Assembly (NCBI GenBank): GCA_017309275.1
Contig: JAFKLT010000066.1
Coordinates: 1-48,895 of the forward strand
Reading direction: 5' to 3'
Length of the DNA stretch: 48,895 nucleotides
From: Sphingomonadales bacterium
GTDB lineage: Bacteria; Pseudomonadota; Alphaproteobacteria; Sphingomonadales; Sphingomonadaceae
In this document: positions 38,230 through 47,727 of the stretch, in pieces
How positions within the stretch are numbered: the first letter of the stretch is position 1
Layout: each line of letters starts with the position of its first letter
Made by a program: the position numbers and the translations under genes
Notes under the pieces: generated by a model
What the model was told of the DNA's origin: nothing
What the model saw: the letters and a program-made list of their open reading frames with translations, nothing else
Database searches by the model: none

Positions 38230-38337
38230 GGACGCTGCGCGGAGATTCATCGCAGATTAGCAACTGCTCTCCGATATTGCGGTTGCCAATTGGGCAGGAG
38301 GCGCGACTGCTGCGTCACCGCGATGACAGGATCCGAC

Positions 38338-39936
38338 ATGCCGCAACCGAACGGTACGATACCGATCCCCGACGACGAGGACCTGCGCCTCGCCGCGGTC
38401 GAGCGCTACAAGCTCGGCGGAATCGGGCGCGAGCCGGCGTTCGACCATATCACGCGGCTGGCGGCCGAGCTGTTCGACGTGCCGATGTCGGTCGTCTCGA
38501 TCATCGGGTCGGACATGCAATGTTTTCGCGGCGCCTGCGGCCTCGATTCGGACGGCACCCCGCGCGATGTGGCCTTCTGCGCCTTCGCGATCCTCGACCC
38601 CGAGGTTACGGTGGTGCCCGACGCCATCGACGATCCGCGTTTTGCGAACAATCCGCTGGTGCTGGGCGATCCCTTCATCCGTTTCTACGCAGGCGCGCCG
38701 CTGCGCGTCGGCGGGCAGCCGGTCGGCACCTTGTGCCTGATCGATACCAAGCCCCGGCAATTCGGTGCCGACGAGCGCAAGCGGCTCGCCGATCTGGCGC
38801 GCACCGTCGTCGACCTGATCGAACTTCGCGTTCAGCGTTTCGCGACCGAGGATCACCGCCGCAAGCTCGACGAGGAGCGTGAGCTCCTGAAGCTGACGGT
38901 CGAGAATGTCAGCGAGGGCGTCGCGCTGTTCGACGGCGACCTGCGGCTGATGCTGTGGAACGAAGATTTCGTCGACCTGCTCGGCTATCCGCGAGGCGCG
39001 GTGAAGGAGGGGATCGAAGCGGCCATCCTGGTCGAGCGGATCGCGGCGAGCGGCGCGCTGGGCTCGGGTGATCCGGCGCAGATTACCGCCGGACTGATGG
39101 CCTCGATCCGCACGACCGAAAGCCGCCGTCTCGACCTGACCGGTCCCAACGGCCGGACGCTCGAGTTCTGGCGCAAGACGCTGGCCGACGGCCGCTTCAT
39201 CGCGACGGTTCGCGACGTGACCGACGAGCGGCAGATGGCGCGGATGAAGGACGAGCTGGTCTCGACTGTCAGCCACGAACTGCGCACGCCGCTGGCGGCG
39301 ATCGTCGGCGCGGTCGGTCTGCTCGATGCCGGCGCGGCCGGTCCCCTCGACGCCAAGGCAGCGCGGCTCGTCACGCTGGGCAAGAAGAATGCCGAGCGGC
39401 TGACCGAACTCGTCAACGACCTGCTCGACATGGACAAGCTGCAATCCGGCCGCATGCCCTTCCGCTTCGAGGCGCAGGACCTAGGCGCGCTGCTCGCCGA
39501 AGCGGCTGAGCAGAATCAGCCCTATGCCGATCGATACCATGTGACATTCGCGCTCGATTTGCCCGGTGCACCGCTGATCGTCCCCGTCGACCGGACGCGG
39601 CTGTTCCAAGTCATCACCAACCTTCTGTCCAACGCCTGCAAATTCTCGCCCGCCGGTTCGACCGTGCACCTGTCGCTGCGGCGCGAAGACCCGCACGCCT
39701 GCATTCGGGTGCGCGATGCCGGACCGGGGATCGGCCCGGCCTTCCGCCATCGGCTCTTCACCCGTTTCGCGCAGGAAGAGGGCGAGCATCAGGCGGGCCA
39801 CGCCGGAACCGGCCTAGGCCTGGCGATCAGCAAGGCGATCGTCGATGCGCATGACGGATCGATCGCACTCGATGAAACATTTGCCGACGGCGCGGCGTTC
39901 GACATCTGTCTGCCGCTGGTCCGCGGCGCCGTTTGA
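38338..39936 (+). CDS. GAF-PAS sensor histidine kinase
   Basis: A 532-residue cytoplasmic kinase with no transmembrane helix. The GAF domain is at about 30-165, the PAS-like domain at about 185-298, HisKA has the phospho-acceptor His313 (STVSHELRTPL), and HATPase carries NLLSNACKFSP, DAGPGIG and GTGLGLAISKAI. I prefer ATG 38338 (AGGAT upstream) over ATG 38323. It is followed ten bases later by a CheY-like regulator, its likely partner, and then by the GH113-like gene. Confidence 0.93.
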   Translation: MPQPNGTIPIPDDEDLRLAAVERYKLGGIGREPAFDHITRLAAELFDVPMSVVSIIGSDMQCFRGACGLDSDGTPRDVAFCAFAILDPEVTVVPDAIDDPRFANNPLVLGDPFIRFYAGAPLRVGGQPVGTLCLIDTKPRQFGADERKRLADLARTVVDLIELRVQRFATEDHRRKLDEERELLKLTVENVSEGVALFDGDLRLMLWNEDFVDLLGYPRGAVKEGIEAAILVERIAASGALGSGDPAQITAGLMASIRTTESRRLDLTGPNGRTLEFWRKTLADGRFIATVRDVTDERQMARMKDELVSTVSHELRTPLAAIVGAVGLLDAGAAGPLDAKAARLVTLGKKNAERLTELVNDLLDMDKLQSGRMPFRFEAQDLGALLAEAAEQNQPYADRYHVTFALDLPGAPLIVPVDRTRLFQVITNLLSNACKFSPAGSTVHLSLRREDPHACIRVRDAGPGIGPAFRHRLFTRFAQEEGEHQAGHAGTGLGLAISKAIVDAHDGSIALDETFADGAAFDICLPLVRGAV

Positions 39937-39945
39937 GGGGAGCCC

Positions 39946-40326
39946 ATGACGATCCGCATTCTCTATGTCGATGACGAGCCTGATCTCCGCGAAATCGCGG
40001 TCATGTCGCTCGAACTCGACCCGGAATTCGAAGTGCGCGACTGCTCGACCGGCACGGCGGCGCTCGCCGAAGCCGCGACGTGGCAACCCGCGCTCGTCAT
40101 GCTCGACGTGATGATGGCGGGGCTCGACGGTCCCGAGACGAGCCGGAAACTCCGCGAGCAGAAAGAGACCGCGCATATCCCCTTCGTCTTCATCACGGCG
40201 CAGGCGCAGGCGAACGATATCGAGATGCTGATGGCCGAGGGTGCGCGGGCGGTGATCCCAAAGCCGTTCGATCCCGCGACGCTGGCGCAGACCGTGCGCG
40301 GACTGCTGACCGATCGCAAGGGTTAG
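39946..40326 (+). CDS. CheY-like single-domain response regulator
   Basis: A 126-residue receiver domain with no output domain. The acidic pair Asp9-Asp10, phospho-acceptor Asp54 (LVMLDVMM), Thr (FITAQ) and Lys (IPKPFDP) are all present. It is encoded directly after the histidine kinase and five bases before the next gene, so it is likely phosphorylated by that kinase and acts through protein contact. An Hpt protein at 47401-47727 could be part of the same relay (inference). Confidence 0.95.
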   Translation: MTIRILYVDDEPDLREIAVMSLELDPEFEVRDCSTGTAALAEAATWQPALVMLDVMMAGLDGPETSRKLREQKETAHIPFVFITAQAQANDIEMLMAEGARAVIPKPFDPATLAQTVRGLLTDRKG

Positions 40327-40330
40327 GCCG

Positions 40331-41353
40331 ATGCCGGTCGACCGGCGCAGCCTGTTGGCGGCCATCGCCGCCGCCTCGCTCGCACCGGCATGGAAGGCCA
40401 AGGCAATCACCCGCGACGCGCTCCACGGTTTCAACCTGATCGAAACGCCCGAGGCGCCCTTCGGCAGCGAGGCCGCCGCGCGCTCGATGCGCGACATCGC
40501 CGCCCTCGGCGCCAATTGCGTCGCGCTGATCCCCTTTCTCTGGCAGTCCTCGGCATCGAGCGCGGAGATCGTCCTTGGCGACGCGCTGCCGCCCGACCGG
40601 CTCCGAGCCGGCATCGCCCAGGCACGCGCTGCGGGCCTTTCGGTGGTGGTCAAGCCGCACATCTGGGTGCCGCACGGCTGGGCGGGCATGGTCGCGCCGC
40701 GCGGCGAGGCCGATTGGTGCCGCTGGTTTTCCGATTATCTTGCCGCGATCCTGCCGCTGGCCCGCCTCGCGGCGGAGGACGGCGCGGCCGCGTTCGTCGT
40801 CGGAACCGAAGTACGCGGGACGGTCGCGCGCTCCGAATGGCGCGAGCTGATCGCCGCCGTCCGGTCGGTCTTTCCGCGCCGACTGACCTATGTCGCGCAC
40901 GGCGCCGACGAGGCGGAAAAGATCGCCTTCTGGCGCGACCTCGATGCGGTCGGCGTGTCGCTCTATCCCGCGCTCGGCGCGGCGCGCGACAAGGGCGCGT
41001 GGCACCGCGCGATGGCGGCGGAACTTGCGCGGGTGCGCGCCGTCGCGTCGCGCGCGGACCGCCCCGTCTGGATCGGCGAAATCGGCCTGCGCTCCGCTGC
41101 CGACGCCACGAAGAAGCCGTGGGAAAGCGCCGAGGAGCGCACGGCCGCCGCCGACCCCGAACTACAGGCGCACGTAATCGGCGCCTGGCTGCACGAATTG
41201 GCGGCTATCGTCCCCGAAGCGCTGCTCGTCTGGCGGTGGTTCAGCGATCCCGATGCGGGCGGCCGCGCCGACACCGACTTTACCGTTCAGGGCAAGCCCG
41301 CCGCCGACGTCCTGCGCGCTTATTGGCTCAAAAGCGGTACCAGAGCCCGGTAA
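40331..41353 (+). CDS. GH113-like glycoside hydrolase, exported
   Basis: A 340-residue TIM-barrel protein. It starts with a short RRSLLAAIAAASLAPAWKAKA export signal, possibly twin-arginine. The barrel carries HGFNLIE, LGANCVALIPFLWQ, the catalytic acid/base Glu160 (VVGTEVRG) and the nucleophile Glu250 (WIGEIGLRS), as in GH113 beta-mannanase-type enzymes. It follows the response regulator by five bases and overlaps the 3' end of the convergent beta-barrel gene by 26 bases. A role in trimming or releasing the polysaccharide made by the opposite operon is a reasonable inference. Confidence 0.85.
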   Translation: MPVDRRSLLAAIAAASLAPAWKAKAITRDALHGFNLIETPEAPFGSEAAARSMRDIAALGANCVALIPFLWQSSASSAEIVLGDALPPDRLRAGIAQARAAGLSVVVKPHIWVPHGWAGMVAPRGEADWCRWFSDYLAAILPLARLAAEDGAAAFVVGTEVRGTVARSEWRELIAAVRSVFPRRLTYVAHGADEAEKIAFWRDLDAVGVSLYPALGAARDKGAWHRAMAAELARVRAVASRADRPVWIGEIGLRSAADATKKPWESAEERTAAADPELQAHVIGAWLHELAAIVPEALLVWRWFSDPDAGGRADTDFTVQGKPAADVLRAYWLKSGTRAR

Positions 41354-42122
41354 TCACGCCCCGTTCGCGCAGCGCGTTCTTGCCGCCCAGCGTCGCCAGT
41401 CCGCCGATCTGAAACGACAGATGGTCGTCGATGTCATAGACCGTGCTCAGATAGGCGTTGTGATAACGGTAGGAGTTGAAGACCCCCTGGCCCGCGCCGT
41501 CGGAGAAGGTGTTAAAGAGCTGGCCGATGACCTGCAGCTTCTTCGCGGGCCGGACGCCCAGCGTGACGTCGGCATGATATTCGTTCGGCGGGTCGCCGGC
41601 GCGCAGGCGATACCCGCCCTGCAGATCAACAAAGGCGTCGGTCTGGCCAAGCTTGAAGCCCTTTCCGACCAGCGCGCGGAAATCATATTCGGCGTCGGTG
41701 CTGCCGACCTGCGCCAGGCTGTCGGTGCGCTTCTTGCCGGGAATGCGGGCCGTGCCCTGCACCGATGCGACCCAGCCGTCGCCGTGCGCGACGCGATAAC
41801 GCGCGCCAAGCTCGGTATAGCCGAGGCCGGATGTGTCGGCCCCCGGCCCCTCGATCCCGACGTGACGGAAACTGGGATTGACCATCAGCGTCAGATCGTC
41901 GGTTACGCCATATTCGATCAGCGCATAGGCCTCCAGCTTCTCATAGTCGCTGATGTCGATGGTATCGCCGTTGCCGTCATAGCCCTTCGTGCTGTTCGAA
42001 TAGACGCCGGTGACGATCACCTGCCCCTTGCCCGCCTCCTGCGTCCAGGCCGACGCAAGCGCCGTTCCGGGCAGGATCAGTGCCGCCAGCGCCGCGAGTG
42101 CGATTGCCGTCTTCTTCATCAT
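41328..42122 (-). CDS. Outer-membrane beta-barrel-like protein
   Basis: A 264-residue protein with a signal peptide (about 1-24, ending ALASAW). Amphipathic strands run throughout and it ends with the outer-membrane C-terminal signature GLWYRF. No family name is recognised with certainty; the layout resembles small transporter-like barrels of unknown substrate. ATG 42122 (or 42119) overlaps the stop of the receiver/GGDEF gene. Being last in the polysaccharide operon, it is a candidate for the outer-membrane exit of the polymer (inference). Confidence 0.85.
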   Translation of the reverse strand: MMKKTAIALAALAALILPGTALASAWTQEAGKGQVIVTGVYSNSTKGYDGNGDTIDISDYEKLEAYALIEYGVTDDLTLMVNPSFRHVGIEGPGADTSGLGYTELGARYRVAHGDGWVASVQGTARIPGKKRTDSLAQVGSTDAEYDFRALVGKGFKLGQTDAFVDLQGGYRLRAGDPPNEYHADVTLGVRPAKKLQVIGQLFNTFSDGAGQGVFNSYRYHNAYLSTVYDIDDHLSFQIGGLATLGGKNALRERGVITGLWYRF

Positions 42123-43081
42123 TCGCTTCCTATGCTGATGGCCTGATTGCCGCCGTTGCGCATCGCCTCTTCTCCGCTCGCGATCATGTGCGACGGCAAA
42201 CGAAGCAGCGCCTCGGCACGGGCTTCGCCGACCACCGTCGACACGCGGACATGGTCGTGATCGGGCGAGCTGCCGTGCGCGAGTTGCAGCGCGGCGAGCC
42301 GCCGATGCGCGTCCTCGGCCATAGCGTGGAGCAGCGCCCCCGTCGTCCCCGGCGCGACGACCAGAAACTGACCGTCGCCGAAATAGCCGAGCGTCGCCGC
42401 CAGCGGTGCGTTGAGCGTGCCGAACTCGCGGCCGAGGCGGCGGAGCAACTGCTCGGCCGCGACCGGACCATTTTCGGCGCGGTATGCCGCCAGGCTGTCG
42501 ACCGTCAGGAGCAACAGCGCGGTGCCGAGGCCGCCGTCGGCCGCCGCCCGGATATGCGCATCGACCGCCTCGCGGTCGGGCAGTCCGATCGCCTCGTCGA
42601 TGCGATAGGTCTTTGCAGGCGCCTTGCCGCTCGCCTGCGCACGCAATTCGGCCTCGCGCGCGTGGCGCCGGTCGATCTCGCGCTTGAAACGCAGCGACGA
42701 CCGAACGCGGGCAAGCAGTTCGATCGGGTTGATCGGCTTGGTCACATAATCGTTGGCGCCGGCGACGAAGGCCTGGTTCAGCACCTCCACGTCGGACTGG
42801 CCGCTGACCATCAGGATCGGAATGTCGCGATAGCGCCGCGACGAACGGATACGCGCGCAGGCCTCGACCCCGTCGACGCCCGGCATCACGATGTCGAGCA
42901 GGACAAGGTCATAGGCCGGCGGTTCGTCAGGGTCGCCGTCGAGGCCCAGCAGTTCATAGGCCTGCTCGGCCGATGCCGCCGCCTTGACCACGTCGAATTC
43001 GCCCTCGGCGAGCGCGGCCAGCGCGATTTCGCGGGCGTCCTCGCTGTCGTCGACCAACAGGATATGGGCCACCTGGGTCAT
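42119..43081 (-). CDS. Receiver plus degenerate GGDEF regulator
   Basis: A 320-residue regulator. The receiver domain (1-130) has Asp11-Asp12, phospho-acceptor Asp63 (LVLLDIVMP) and Lys (YVTKPINP). After a helical linker (135-160) the C-terminal part (165-300) looks like a GGDEF fold, but the signature is replaced by FGDGQF. It should not make c-di-GMP and could instead bind a ligand or partner. Within the polysaccharide operon it may sense phosphorylation and control the synthase. Confidence 0.87.
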   Translation of the reverse strand: MTQVAHILLVDDSEDAREIALAALAEGEFDVVKAAASAEQAYELLGLDGDPDEPPAYDLVLLDIVMPGVDGVEACARIRSSRRYRDIPILMVSGQSDVEVLNQAFVAGANDYVTKPINPIELLARVRSSLRFKREIDRRHAREAELRAQASGKAPAKTYRIDEAIGLPDREAVDAHIRAAADGGLGTALLLLTVDSLAAYRAENGPVAAEQLLRRLGREFGTLNAPLAATLGYFGDGQFLVVAPGTTGALLHAMAEDAHRRLAALQLAHGSSPDHDHVRVSTVVGEARAEALLRLPSHMIASGEEAMRNGGNQAISIGSE

Positions 43082-44523
43082 TGAATGTCTCCGGATTGGG
43101 TGCGCGACCAGACGCGCCAGCCCTGATGATCATAGGTCAGGCGATAGCCTGGCGCGCCTTGCGCATAGAGAGCGGGGAAGATGCGCGTGACCAGATCGTC
43201 GCTCTCCCCCGGCTGGTGCTGACGAACCGCGACATGCGGTGCGTCCAGTTCGCGCTTCAGGATCGCGACGGTGAAGGCCGGATCGGTCGCTGTGATCAGT
43301 CCGCGGGTCGCTCCGCGCGCAGTGACCACCGCCGGATGCGCGATCGCGTCGATCATCACATCGTCGCGTCCGGCAAGATATTCGCCAAGGTCGGCTTCGG
43401 GCGTGGTGCCCGCGATGCGGCTACCGAACAGCGCATCCAGCGCCGGCCGGATCGCCGCAATGTTGGTCAGCGTGATGCTGAGCGCGATCAGCAGGCCGAT
43501 CGCCATCAGCGCCGCCGTACGAAGCGCCCGAGCACGCTCGATCGGCCAGCGCGCCGAAACGACCGCCGCCGCGGCAACGGTCGGCGCCAGCGCACCGATC
43601 GCGCTCGACGAAAGACCAAGGATAGCCAGCAGCGCCGCCGCAAGCATCATCGTTCCCAAAAGCGCGCCCGCCGCCGCCTGTAGCGGGCGACGCGTGCTGA
43701 CGCGCAGGATCATGCCCGGCACGATCACCATCGTACCGATCACCCCCGCGCCGCACGCCGCAGCGACCAGCCACCAGGGCTGGCTGCTCCACCGGGCCGC
43801 CTGCAGAAACTCGGGCGTCACGAAGGCGAGCGGATCGTGGAGCAGGATCCACGACACGATGCAGAAGGCAAAGATCGAAAAGAGCAGCGGGAACAGCAGC
43901 ACCGTATAGACGCTGACATAGAAGCGCTGGAGCATCTGCGTCGGCACCGACAGCAACAGAAAGGGCACCGCCGAAACCGCGATCACCGCACCTTCCAGAT
44001 TGGTAAAGGCGAGCAGGGGCAGCGACAGCGTCAGCGTGATCAGGTCGTTGACCCCGCCCGTCGCGCGAAACCCGAACAGCCCGAGGCCATAGAGCCATAC
44101 GCCCCACAACAGGAGCATCGCCTCCGGCCCGCTCGCGACCGAAAACAGCGCGAAGGGATGCAGGCAGAACAGCAGCGCAAGGAAAACGACCGCCTCGACC
44201 TCGAAGCGCGCGCGGCGCATCGTGACGATATAGGCGACCAGGAATCCCCCCGCGAGCCCGGCGGTCAGCAGCGCCGGCGCCGCGATCCCGATCAGCGCCG
44301 CGAACGGCTCGACGATCGACAGCAGCACATAGGGCAGCGGCGGATAGGCGGCGAGCAGCGTCGCAAGATCGGCCTTTCCGTTCATCCCCAGCATCGCGCG
44401 GCCGGCCAGCGCCGCCGTGTCGGCGGGCCACAGGTTCGCCCGCGCCAGCCACAGCGATGCCAGCGCCGCCAGCAGGCCAAAGCCGATGATGGTCAGCCGG
44501 GCGCGGGTCAGGTGCGCGGTCAT
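43078..44523 (-). CDS. Polytopic membrane protein of polysaccharide operon
   Basis: A 481-residue inner-membrane protein with about ten transmembrane helices and a soluble C-terminal stretch (about 410-481). The pattern resembles GT-C/DUF2029-type glycosyltransferases: an Asp near the N-terminus in a loop (LWPADTAALAGRAML) followed by ...AAYPPLPY. The match is weak. The start at ATG 44523 overlaps the GT2 stop (ATGA); the frame upstream is a shadow. It may polymerise or modify the glycan, or help translocate it. Confidence 0.82.
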   Translation of the reverse strand: MTAHLTRARLTIIGFGLLAALASLWLARANLWPADTAALAGRAMLGMNGKADLATLLAAYPPLPYVLLSIVEPFAALIGIAAPALLTAGLAGGFLVAYIVTMRRARFEVEAVVFLALLFCLHPFALFSVASGPEAMLLLWGVWLYGLGLFGFRATGGVNDLITLTLSLPLLAFTNLEGAVIAVSAVPFLLLSVPTQMLQRFYVSVYTVLLFPLLFSIFAFCIVSWILLHDPLAFVTPEFLQAARWSSQPWWLVAAACGAGVIGTMVIVPGMILRVSTRRPLQAAAGALLGTMMLAAALLAILGLSSSAIGALAPTVAAAAVVSARWPIERARALRTAALMAIGLLIALSITLTNIAAIRPALDALFGSRIAGTTPEADLGEYLAGRDDVMIDAIAHPAVVTARGATRGLITATDPAFTVAILKRELDAPHVAVRQHQPGESDDLVTRIFPALYAQGAPGYRLTYDHQGWRVWSRTQSGDIQ

Positions 44524-46406
44524 GCCGTCGGCTCCGGCTTCAGCGCCTCGGCGACTTCCATCGCCGTATGTTTCGAAATGCCGTGCTGGGTCTTTTCCCA
44601 ATAAAAGGGTTTGGTGATGAGCTGCCATGCCCCTTTCCACGAGGCGATCGACAGCAAGACCCAATACCAGATGACGGTAATGCTATAGGGCGCGAGCTTC
44701 ACCCACTGCCGCCGGAAGGGCGCGAGCATCATCAGAAAGATGAACATGCCGTTGCCGAGCAACAGGTTGAGCAGGCTCATGTAGAGCAGGATCGGCGGAA
44801 AGACGAGGTCGAAGCCGCTGGTCTGCGTAATGATCCAAAAGGCGAAGACGCCCCAGAAGATCGGGTTGAGCAGCCCCGACAGCACCGTGCCGCCGATGAA
44901 GGCGACGAAGCCCAGCGTGCCGAGCGGCCCCACCGTCTTCATCAGGTGCAGCGGTCGCCGCGTGTGAACGAGGCAGGTCTGCATATAGCCCTTGATCCAG
45001 CGCGAACGCTGCCGGATCCAGTTGGTCTGCGAGACATTGGCCTCTTCGAACGTCGTCGATTCCACCAGGCGGACGCGATAGCCCTTCTGTGTCATGCGGA
45101 TGCCCAGGTCGGCGTCCTCGGTGACGTTGAACGGGTCCCATGCGTGCAGTTCGCGCAGCACGTCGATCTTGAAATGGTTCGACGTCCCGCCCAGCGGGAT
45201 CGGGATGCCCAGGCGTTCCAGCCCCGGCAGCATCAGGTCGAACCACAGCGAATAGTCGAGCGTGAACATGCGCGTCAGCCAGTTCTCCGACGCGTTATAA
45301 TAGTTCAGCCGGCACTGGACGCAGGCGACCTCGGGCCCCGACCGGCGAAAGGCCGCGACGACCTTGCGCAGTTGGTCGGGCTCGGGCTTGTCCTCTGCAT
45401 CGAAGATGACGAGATAGTCGCCGCGCGCATAGCGCAGCGCATAGTTGCATGCCTTCGGTTTGGTCTGAGGTTGCGACGCGGGGACGCGGATGATCTCGAA
45501 GATGCCCTCCAAACCCAGGCGTTTCGCGGCGTCGATCGTTTCGTGATCGCCCTCCTCCAGCACGATCTTGATGTCGAGCTTGGCCAACGGATAGTCGAGC
45601 TTGCGCAGCGCGCCCGCCAGGATCGGCAGCACCTCGGGCTCGCGGAACATGGGGACCAGGATGGTATAGATCGGCAGATCGTCGTCGCGCAGCAGCCGCG
45701 CCTCGGCATCGAGCGCTTTCATGCGGGTGCCCTGGCGGCGACCGCCGGCCCAGACCAGAAAGCCCTTGAAGATGAAATTGCCCAGATAGAACAGGCTCAT
45801 CACCGCATTGACGATGATCAGCGTGACGATCGGCGACCAGGCGAGGCCCGCGACGAGGATGGTCAGGAATAGCCATGCCGCCGCGATCTGCGCGCGGGTA
45901 AACACCGTCTGCGCCGACATCTCGGGATCGGTGTCGGCCAGCTCATAGACCGCGCGGTGCGAGTGGCTGCTGCCGAAGGCGCGCTGAAGCGACCACAATA
46001 TGTCGAACTTGGCCGTGACGACCAGATCGACGTCGCGCCCCCAGCGGCGGCGGATATACAGCATCGCCTCAGGTCCGGGGCGTGCGGTCGCGATGACGAG
46101 GCGGCCGTCGCGGCTTCGCCACGGCATCGTCAGCTCGCGCATATAATCGTCAACCTCGGCCTCGTTCAGCAGCTCGGGGTCGGGCGGATCGTTGCGCAGG
46201 TCGACGAAATCGATGCCGAAGCGCTGCGCGAGCGCGGTGTAATAGGCGATCGGCGTGATCCAGCGCCGCGCCATCAGCACGTCGGACAGCGAGGCGTCCC
46301 ACGCCTCCACCAGGTCGACGGCCTCGTCGAACTGCTTCAGCGTGATCAGCCCCCGCTCGACCAGAAAGTCGCCGGTCCAGGTATCGCTGGCGGTCAGGCG
46401 CGTCAT
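44520..46406 (-). CDS. MshEN-GT2 polysaccharide synthase (NfrB/BcsA-like)
   Basis: A 628-residue synthase. Residues 1-145 are an MshEN/GspE-N-like domain (GDFLVERGLITLKQFDEAV, LSDVLMARRWIT, FGIDFVDL), which in NfrB- and MshE-type proteins binds c-di-GMP. Two membrane helices (about 173-215) precede a processive GT2 domain with the acidic motifs EEGDHE (285-290), FDAED (335-339) and VTED (428-431) and the QxxRW motif (QRSRW, 466-470). Further helices follow. There is no PilZ domain. ATG 46406 overlaps the BcsB-like stop (ATGA). It should polymerise and export a glycan across the inner membrane. Confidence 0.93.
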   Translation of the reverse strand: MTRLTASDTWTGDFLVERGLITLKQFDEAVDLVEAWDASLSDVLMARRWITPIAYYTALAQRFGIDFVDLRNDPPDPELLNEAEVDDYMRELTMPWRSRDGRLVIATARPGPEAMLYIRRRWGRDVDLVVTAKFDILWSLQRAFGSSHSHRAVYELADTDPEMSAQTVFTRAQIAAAWLFLTILVAGLAWSPIVTLIIVNAVMSLFYLGNFIFKGFLVWAGGRRQGTRMKALDAEARLLRDDDLPIYTILVPMFREPEVLPILAGALRKLDYPLAKLDIKIVLEEGDHETIDAAKRLGLEGIFEIIRVPASQPQTKPKACNYALRYARGDYLVIFDAEDKPEPDQLRKVVAAFRRSGPEVACVQCRLNYYNASENWLTRMFTLDYSLWFDLMLPGLERLGIPIPLGGTSNHFKIDVLRELHAWDPFNVTEDADLGIRMTQKGYRVRLVESTTFEEANVSQTNWIRQRSRWIKGYMQTCLVHTRRPLHLMKTVGPLGTLGFVAFIGGTVLSGLLNPIFWGVFAFWIITQTSGFDLVFPPILLYMSLLNLLLGNGMFIFLMMLAPFRRQWVKLAPYSITVIWYWVLLSIASWKGAWQLITKPFYWEKTQHGISKHTAMEVAEALKPEPTA

Positions 46407-47404
46407 GCGGCGGCCTCCGAAACCTGCGGCCTGGGCAAGCGGCGATAGACGAAGAGCAGGAAAGCCGAGGCGATCAGCCAGAAACCGAGCAGGCCGAACC
46501 GCCAGATCATCATCCGCCGCTCGCCACCATAAGGGTCATAACCGCCCGGATAGTCGATGCGCACTGCGCGGTGGTCGCGCAGCGTCGAAAAGGCCATCGC
46601 CCGGCCACCGGCGTCGAACAACGCAATATCTCCGTCGCTCAGGTCGAGTTCGGACGGCAGGTCGCCCTCCCCCGGCCGCACCCAGATCAGCGGCCGGTCG
46701 CGGCCGCGCAATATCTGCACCACGGTCATGCGAGCGAGCGCGTCGGGTGCGAAGATGACCGGCCCGTCCTCGCGCAACAGGCGCACCGGCCCGTGATCGA
46801 AGCGGATCATCGGCGCGGTGCCGGGTGGCGGGCTGTCGCCGACATGGATGCTTGCCCGCGCGCTGGGATCGAGCGGAGCCGCCGGTGCCAGCGCCGCGCG
46901 CACGACCGCGGAGAGCGCCTGCTCGCGCGGACCCGGTGCATGGACGGCGATGCCGGCGCGATAGGCGGTGACGAGCTGGGAGAAATCGTCGACCTCGGCC
47001 TGCGGCTTGCCCAGGCGAAAGCGCAGCGGCGTCACCGGGCGGATCGCCGCGAGCTGGGCGTCGCAATCCTTTGCGCAGCCACGAACCGACGCCGCGATCT
47101 CGATCTGGTTGCGCGTCGACAGCAACCGGTCCTGAAGCGGCACGTCGACGACCGTGACCTTGCCCCGCGACGCGCGGTGGCGCGCGATCACCATGCCGTT
47201 GATCGCGATGCTGATCCAGGTATCGCGCGCCAGCGATCCGACCCCGCGCGCGTCGATTTCGACCCGCGCGGCGGTGGGCCGGCTGTCCGCGGGAAGCGTC
47301 CGCAGGTCGAGGCCGTAGTGCGACACGGCCACGCGCGCCTCCGCCATCGGTGACAGGAAGGCCGCCGTCAGCAGGGCGAGAGCGAGGACGATCCGATCGA
47401 TCAT
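46403..47404 (-). CDS. BcsB-like periplasmic membrane-anchored subunit
   Basis: A 333-residue protein with a signal peptide (about 1-23), a periplasmic beta-rich region with two Cys (GCAKDCD) and one C-terminal transmembrane helix (about 298-318). The position just before a cellulose-synthase-like GT2, and the single C-terminal anchor, resemble BcsB of cellulose synthase, but at under half its length. The family is not certain. It probably carries the nascent glycan through the periplasm (inference). Confidence 0.82.
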   Translation of the reverse strand: MIDRIVLALALLTAAFLSPMAEARVAVSHYGLDLRTLPADSRPTAARVEIDARGVGSLARDTWISIAINGMVIARHRASRGKVTVVDVPLQDRLLSTRNQIEIAASVRGCAKDCDAQLAAIRPVTPLRFRLGKPQAEVDDFSQLVTAYRAGIAVHAPGPREQALSAVVRAALAPAAPLDPSARASIHVGDSPPPGTAPMIRFDHGPVRLLREDGPVIFAPDALARMTVVQILRGRDRPLIWVRPGEGDLPSELDLSDGDIALFDAGGRAMAFSTLRDHRAVRIDYPGGYDPYGGERRMMIWRFGLLGFWLIASAFLLFVYRRLPRPQVSEAAA

Positions 47405-47727
47405 TCGGCGCGTGCTTCGCCGATCATGCGGGTGATGTCCGATGCCGCGCCGCGCACGCTGCGGACCTCTTCGGCGGTCAGCGGACCGCCCGATCGCAGC
47501 ACGCCGAGGATGATCTCGTCGGCCTCGCGCGCACGCAGGCCGATGTCGGGATAACCGATCGAAGCGGCGGTGCCGGCGATATCGTGAAAGACGAAGCGCA
47601 AGTCGCTGAGATCACTGCCCACATGCTGGTCGACCCTGTCGAGGATCGGGGCCAGGTCGGCGACTCTCTGTGCGGTACGCGCGAGATAGCGGGGGCCGAT
47701 AGCGGCCATTTTTTCGGCGAAACTCAT
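47401..47727 (-). CDS. Hpt (histidine phosphotransfer) protein
   Basis: A 108-residue helical Hpt domain with the phospho-His motif FHDIAGTAASIG (H-x3-G-x-A). ATG 47727 follows GAGGT; a longer frame starts at 47769. It is the first gene of the polysaccharide operon and overlaps the BcsB-like gene (ATGA). It could pass phosphate between the kinase at 38.3 kb and the receiver at 42.1-43.1 kb, coupling a signal to glycan export (inference). Confidence 0.85.
   Translation of the reverse strand: MSFAEKMAAIGPRYLARTAQRVADLAPILDRVDQHVGSDLSDLRFVFHDIAGTAASIGYPDIGLRAREADEIILGVLRSGGPLTAEEVRSVRGAASDITRMIGEARAE

Follow-up and report, generated by a model that had tools for sequence, protein, structure and literature searches.

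A Xag/Sfz-type polysaccharide synthase operon with embedded phosphorelay genes beside a rewritten MshEN site in a sphingomonad

Introduction

Exopolysaccharide synthase clusters of the Xag/Sfz/Sfb type have already been described (PMC3609779, PMC4643136, PMC8250860). The xagABCD genes of Xanthomonas are attributed to Tao et al. (2010) by PMC4643136. According to PMC3609779, an rpfG mutant forms more biofilm, and deleting xagA or xagB reduces this increase. PMC4624772 regards xagABC and similar operons as likely to encode a protein that binds cyclic diguanosine monophosphate (c-di-GMP). The MshEN domain is described in PMC5013675 as a widespread high-affinity receptor that binds c-di-GMP via two 24-residue motifs (RLGxx..G..L..L..Q). 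Here we analyse a stretch of 48,895 nucleotides, hereafter the window, from a Sphingomonadales bacterium (assembly GCA_017309275.1, contig JAFKLT010000066.1), in which six minus-strand genes (47727-41328) form an operon around an MshEN-bearing family 2 glycosyltransferase (GT2). By sequence comparison the gene set belongs, as an alphaproteobacterial branch, to the Xag/Sfz type of exopolysaccharide synthase cluster, the core of which is in print. Its novelty is in its control: a known synthase type has had its c-di-GMP site rewritten, and its operon has taken up phosphorelay genes with a dead-GGDEF protein as the output. The comparison suggests that control of a surface-polysaccharide synthase has changed hands in evolution.

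Relation to described synthase clusters

All five junctions of the operon are ATGA overlaps. In order of transcription its genes encode a histidine phosphotransfer (Hpt) protein (47401..47727), a BcsB-like periplasmic protein in a short form of 333 aa (46403..47404), an XagB/Sfz2-type GT2 polysaccharide synthase of 628 residues with an N-terminal MshEN domain (44520..46406), an XagC/Sfz3-type polytopic protein with a GT-C fold (43078..44523; ATG start at 44523, 481 residues), a protein that joins a receiver (REC) domain to a catalytically dead GGDEF domain (42119..43081) and a putative XagA-like outer-membrane barrel (41328..42122). A sequence-only reading of the window had claimed five to six genes in an overlapping operon, and six were recovered in that span and order. 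It had also placed MshEN N-terminal to the GT2 domain; Pfam agrees, with PF05157 at residues 63-149 (54.0 bits) ahead of the GT2 family PF13632 (86.4 bits). The DAED, TED and QxxRW motifs of the GT2 domain are unchanged across a ten-row GT2 alignment.

The GT2 protein is an XagB/Sfz2 orthologue that shares 48-57% identity with the Xanthomonas and Mariprofundus loci across some 600 residues, and the genes that define membership in the cluster (XagC-like polytopic protein, XagA-like barrel, GH113 glycoside hydrolase, BcsB-like protein) all lie alongside it. The earlier reading of a polysaccharide synthase operon is supported. To collect relatives, the GT2 alignment was run against single genomes of 84,980 species, which gave at least 593 stretches, at least 568 of them encoding a relative. 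The best 80 of these at least 568 were kept; the clade counts below concern them, and their rows are not evenly drawn.

XagABCD of Xanthomonas resembles the window in having the barrel XagA, the MshEN-GT2 protein XagB (54-56% identity), the polytopic XagC and the GH113 enzyme XagD in one cluster. It differs in gene order (barrel-GT2-polytopic-GH113) and in that no REC/dead-GGDEF protein, Hpt or kinase was found in the 12 Xanthomonas loci. No BcsB-like open reading frame (ORF) adjoins the GT2 gene there; L079 alone has one, beyond the GH113 gene. The Xanthomonas MshEN site is also better kept than that of the window, with 10 of 14 positions (L084 scores 44.3 bits with the motif model introduced below). 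The stalk clusters sfz1-sfz5 and sfb1-sfb4 of Mariprofundus and Ferriphaselus share the BcsB-like, MshEN-GT2, polytopic and GH113 genes, in that order, with the barrel homologue behind them in Mariprofundus. Unlike in the window, no kinase or Hpt was found in them, the only REC ORF was a distant one in L093, and the c-di-GMP site is near-canonical (12-13 of 14 positions in six Mariprofundus-type rows, 11 of 14 in Ferriphaselus).

Two further GT2 systems are less close. NfrB-NfrA-YbcH of Escherichia coli also joins a GT2 to MshEN and has an exopolysaccharide output, but its MshEN lies at the opposite end of the protein, its partners are others, and its c-di-GMP binding has been demonstrated, as PMC8669469 reports. 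The earlier remark on the reversed domain order and other partners of NfrB was thus borne out, and an NfrB orthologue was rejected (NF008411 22.1 bits, cut-off 1170). BcsA-BcsB cellulose synthase likewise pairs a GT2 synthase with a BcsB-type periplasmic partner, but the window has a short BcsB, GT-C-fold and GH113 partners; no PilZ domain was found in it, the CelA model gives 43.2 bits against a cut-off of 699.1, and a cellulose synthase was rejected. The HmrABCX relay of Caulobacter, as presented in PMC11481889, was considered and is a different system. The sequence-only reading had not recognised the combination as described. For the synthase core this did not survive, as the core is of the published Xag/Sfz/Sfb type, and a wholly undescribed system is ruled out by that match; our searches of the open-licence literature turned up neither a phosphorelay within such an operon nor its association with the altered MshEN site.

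Phosphorelay genes within one clade

The Hpt and REC/dead-GGDEF genes confirm that phosphorelay parts lie within the operon, and they recur in related loci. In a quick tree of the GT domain, made without the MshEN columns, all REC-positive rows fall in one mostly alphaproteobacterial clade of 48 rows (SH-aLRT 99), 47 of which are REC-positive; for L038-L040 the REC label was transferred from named loci of almost the same sequence. The REC gene directly follows the polytopic-protein gene in 41 loci. In the window protein the REC domain scores 89.1 bits and the GGDEF domain 21.1 bits (cut-off 23.8). An active diguanylate cyclase was rejected: the window motif reads GDGQF, and a GG(D/E)EF-type motif is present in 0 of 42 REC/dead-GGDEF proteins, all 42 of which keep the REC aspartate. 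Some species occur twice among these 42 proteins and among the 43 REC-positive loci discussed next (L032 and L050 are the same species).

The window Hpt protein, which starts at the ATG at 47727, matches PF01627 at 25.0 bits (cut-off 24.6) and has FHDIAGT around its histidine. We searched related loci for Hpt genes with an iterated profile, among ORFs of less than 260 aa within 4.5 kb upstream. A separate small Hpt gene was found ahead of the BcsB-like gene in 21/43 REC-positive loci versus 0/43 REC-negative loci, and the histidine region is clearly aligned in 19 of these 21 (L061 and L063 align poorly). L033 and L048, which have no separate Hpt gene, carry a divergent hybrid kinase with a REC match at its C-terminus, and L056 encodes a REC-Hpt protein above the cut-off (Hpt 30.8 bits) besides its small Hpt gene.

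The kinase follows the same division: where over 5 kb of flanking sequence is available on each side, it is present in 17/34 REC-positive loci versus 0/33 REC-negative ones. In the window, a GAF-PAS-HisKA-HATPase histidine kinase (38323..39936, start taken at the first ATG of the ORF), a single-domain response regulator (39946..40326; PF00072 79.1 bits) and the GH113 glycoside hydrolase (40331..41353; PF22612 116.8 bits) are closely spaced on the plus strand (38323-41353), convergent with the operon. The same order and orientation recur in L054, L056, L058 and L067. These three genes belong to the system, and the sequence-only reading had stopped short of them.

An eroded MshEN ligand site

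The ligand-site region of the window MshEN spans 53 residues (10-62; 46221..46379, minus strand) and is eroded. In the register set by 5htl and the PilF chains, 5 of 14 site positions are kept, namely Gly11, Gly18, Leu29 (as Val), Leu39 and Leu58. WTGD replaces RLGD (Leu10 to Thr), and Gln32, Arg38, Gly40, Gly47 and Gln61 are replaced, so that both Gln and both Arg are lost. Residues Trp10, Thr11, Gly12 and Asp13 are invariant in the ten-row GT2 alignment, at the place where the motif reads RLGD. Because of this invariance, WTGD looks like a new motif, and repurposing seems more likely than drift. In the wider set, L042 has CTGD.

A site table of the window and 80 loci has 77 rows with a complete motif (L069, L070, L073 and L104 were dropped for gaps in it). 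REC-positive rows keep a mean of 6.3/14 positions (35 rows) versus 9.8/14 in REC-negative rows (42 rows); Arg9 is present in 0/35 versus 13/42 and Gln32 in 4/35 versus 32/42. We also scored 20 rows, hand-chosen to cover the tree, with NF053729, the curated NCBIfam model of the c-di-GMP motif (cut-off 38). The window GT2 scores 30.2 bits, and the other REC-positive rows outside Niveispirillum score 28.9 (L041), 24.3 (L044), 34.9 (L048), 21.9 (L056), 25.6 (L060), 21.8 (L064) and 37.1 (L102), so that 8/8 are below the cut-off. Nine of ten rows without REC are above it: L077 (43.6), L084 (44.3), L092 (62.6), L094 (59.3), L096 (61.1), L098 (62.7), L118 (58.9), L119 (60.2) and L075 (43.8); L106 gave no match. 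L075, from Paraburkholderia rhynchosiae, is nested in the REC-positive clade and has no REC gene between its polytopic and barrel genes. Overall, the site is eroded across this clade except in the Niveispirillum sister branch and this one Paraburkholderia. The clade has thus kept the MshEN domain with a rewritten ligand site beside a dead GGDEF protein, and the loci offer a natural series for the rewiring of synthase control, from Mariprofundus (near-canonical) through Niveispirillum (intermediate) to the sphingomonads (rewritten), with Paraburkholderia lacking REC and scoring above the cut-off.

Weighing the explanations

We consider it modestly probable, taking the whole account together, that the locus is a branch of the Xag/Sfz synthases in which control has shifted from c-di-GMP to a phosphorelay and which makes a polymer probably of beta-mannan type. 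In this account the GT2 (XagB) would build the polymer and extrude it across the inner membrane, the BcsB-like protein would take it up in the periplasm, the GT-C-fold protein would be an accessory and probably non-catalytic, the barrel would be the exit, and the GH113 enzyme could trim or release the product. As for the order of phosphotransfer, we infer that the kinase (38323) and the single-domain regulator (39946) feed the Hpt protein (47727), which would in turn phosphorylate the REC domain of the dead-GGDEF protein. This protein may then act on the synthase; the simplest way would be for it to dock on the altered MshEN domain of the GT2, which would no longer need c-di-GMP.

Phosphorelay control fits the data better than c-di-GMP control, and 'c-di-GMP-responsive' is the weak part of the earlier reading: with 5/14 ligand-site positions kept and 30.2 bits against a cut-off of 38, the window seems not to bear it out. 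The synthase could still answer c-di-GMP through a non-canonical MshEN mode, as that reading would have it, with the relay as a second layer. The MshEN fold is retained (PF05157 54.0 bits), Gly11, Gly18, Leu39 and Leu58 are still present, the host genome encodes 20 GGDEF domains above cut-off, and single-site changes of charged residues in MshE are mild, as given in PMC5013675. We nevertheless regard this as unlikely, given the loss of both Gln, both Arg, Gly40 and Gly47, the change of Leu10 to Thr and the NF053729 score below cut-off. The MshE data in PMC5013675 point the same way for some positions, as G40I and G11L lose stabilisation by c-di-GMP and a change of any one conserved hydrophobic residue costs more than tenfold. 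In the literature searched, as far as the retrieved text goes, c-di-GMP binding by an XagB protein was not found.

The REC/dead-GGDEF protein could instead make no contact with the synthase and control transcription, localisation or another partner, leaving the MshEN remnant with a structural role alone. This would suit the nine rows that have an eroded MshEN without a REC protein, and contact between the two proteins is itself conjectural. The REC gene, however, overlaps both its neighbours in the window and directly follows the polytopic gene in 41 loci, no DNA-binding domain was found in the Pfam scan of the window proteins, and WTGD is a new motif, invariant in the ten-row alignment; we hold this explanation to be distinctly unlikely. 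It is very improbable that the dead GGDEF domain serves as a nucleotide receptor (GTP or c-di-GMP), bringing in a second messenger by another route. A GGDEF-like region is kept in 42 aligned proteins and degenerate GGDEF receptors are known, but the GG(D/E)EF-type motif is absent in 42/42, and no RxxD I-site is seen by eye in the window protein at what we take to be the expected spacing.

Several observations weigh against a relay that displaced c-di-GMP. REC-negative rows often lack Arg9 (13/42 have it) and Gln61 (5/42 have it), and nine of them (Acetobacteraceae, other Rhodospirillales, Devosia and Bauldia) are eroded without a REC protein, so erosion does not need the relay. Four REC-positive rows, from Niveispirillum and a metagenome-assembled genome labelled Azospirillum, keep 9-10/14 positions; the Niveispirillum rows L068 and L074 score 53.7 and 51.9 bits, above the cut-off, and L102 at 37.1 is just under it. 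Below-cut-off motif scores do not prove a loss of binding; according to PMC5013675 single changes of Arg9, Asp12 or Gln32 cost fivefold at most and several Leu-to-Ala variants are still stabilised by c-di-GMP. A separate Hpt gene is missing from 22/43 REC-positive loci (four of the 22, L046, L069, L070 and L073, begin inside or just before the GT2 gene and cannot show upstream genes), the fused Hpt matches of L033 (18.0 bits) and L048 (23.6 bits) fall short of the Pfam cut-off, 24.6, and no kinase is seen in half of the REC-positive loci that have over 5 kb of flanking sequence on each side. The association of the relay with the eroded site rests on few independent events: an independent-pairs test has only 2-3 pairs and can show nothing, and REC gain as the cause of erosion had to be set aside as something that the phylogeny cannot show.

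The most specific form of the phosphorelay account, in which the phosphorylated REC domain of the dead-GGDEF protein docks on a repurposed MshEN in place of c-di-GMP and the polymer is a bacterial beta-mannan, is possible but on the whole somewhat unlikely. If the docking holds, one lineage would have kept the regulatory domain but let a protein contact replace the second messenger there.

The polymer and the GH113 enzyme

The GH113 enzyme, the counterpart of XagD/Sfz4, matches solved endo-beta-1,4-mannanases; its catalytic residues are Glu160 and Glu250, and both are kept in 45/45 GH113 rows. Six Xanthomonas genomes have exactly one GH113 match each, within the coordinates of the xag locus. 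According to PMC9032380, X. campestris and X. citri each have a GH113 enzyme that is an endo-mannanase; judging by the single copy in other species, these two are presumably XagD. Because the sole Xanthomonas GH113 lies in the xag locus and two Xanthomonas GH113 enzymes are published endo-mannanases, the polymer may be of beta-mannan type (beta-1,4-mannan or glucomannan), a proposal that we place just on the doubtful side of even. Against it, a Phenylobacterium GH113 of the same clade (clade 2) had no activity as reported in PMC9032380, and a GH113 gene was found in only 18/43 REC-positive loci. Neither xagD nor xagB appeared in the retrieved text of the top-ranked papers of one literature search.

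Distribution

Close GT2 orthologues (at least 66% identity over at least 600 residues) occur in 7/199 genomes of the family (E 0.001) and 6/396 of the order (E 1e-60), the host's own included, and in none of the 18 other listed genomes of the host genus (E 1e-60). At E 1e-80, 34/385 genomes of the class and 68/398 of the phylum have a match. The system is widespread but patchy. Six genomes of the same family were compared: 6/6 have the BcsB-like, GT2, polytopic and REC genes side by side in one locus, 4/6 also the barrel gene and 3/6 the GH113 gene. The synteny comparison that the sequence-only reading had proposed thus came out in its favour, and because the genes recur together in other genomes the set is more than chance. 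In a plasmid search, 3 of 72,556 records encoded GT2 relatives, the closest with 61.6% identity.

BcsB-like, polytopic and barrel proteins

The BcsB-like and polytopic assignments were made from the folds; profile searches of PDB sequences did not give them, with no match at E 10 for the BcsB-like profile and three weak, unrelated matches for the polytopic one. PF03170 gives the window BcsB-like protein 10 bits (cut-off 21); at E 0.01 it matches 29/37 rows of the alignment, the window row not among them. With its predicted structure, the 22 best Foldseek matches are all BcsB chains, at low TM-scores (0.24-0.36). The protein is about half the usual length in the window, L041 and L042, most relatives measuring about 630-860 aa between stops, and the part that is left aligns to BcsB over its C-terminal half.

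The polytopic protein is assigned a GT-C fold. The catalytic residue of GT-C enzymes is acidic and lies in their first outer loop. At residues 24-66 of the polytopic protein, where the alignment is uncertain, no column has Asp or Glu in more than 52% of 48 rows; with no acidic residue conserved, it is doubtful whether XagC is a normal, catalytic member of the GT-C enzymes.

The barrel protein has a signal-peptide-like start and WYRF at its end, and no Pfam family scored above cut-off. It is homologous to the barrel adjoining the Xanthomonas GT2, and from this homologue it is probably a barrel too.

Eroded MshEN domains without a REC protein are found in L105-L111, L114 and L115 (Rhodospirillales, Devosia/Bauldia); in L108, L111 and L115 a scan of one gene lying downstream of the polytopic one found no other regulator.

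For the iron-stalk clusters, homologues of the window barrel (ORFs of 318-322 aa) lie downstream of GH113 in L093-L095, L099 and L101, at the position and in the size range of Sfz5. Given this placement, the stalk cluster probably has its XagA-like barrel in Sfz5; the two Ferriphaselus genomes of Kato et al. are given as lacking an xagA-like gene in PMC4643136. In Mariprofundus ferrooxydans PV-1 the stalk GT2 has a near-canonical MshEN c-di-GMP site (L094:8968-9417, 59.3 bits, cut-off 38). The relevant passages of Koeksoy et al. (PMC8250860) examine RxxD and RxxxR motifs instead of the MshEN site and assign no function to Sfz3 and Sfz5. Our comparison suggests identities for the parts left open there: a near-canonical MshEN in Sfz2, a GT-C fold for the Sfz3 family, a barrel for Sfz5 and perhaps a beta-mannan as the polymer. 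In the Mariprofundus-type loci L093 and L099, tblastn aligns GT2 residues 12-63 twice in succession, a doubled MshEN-like N-terminus.

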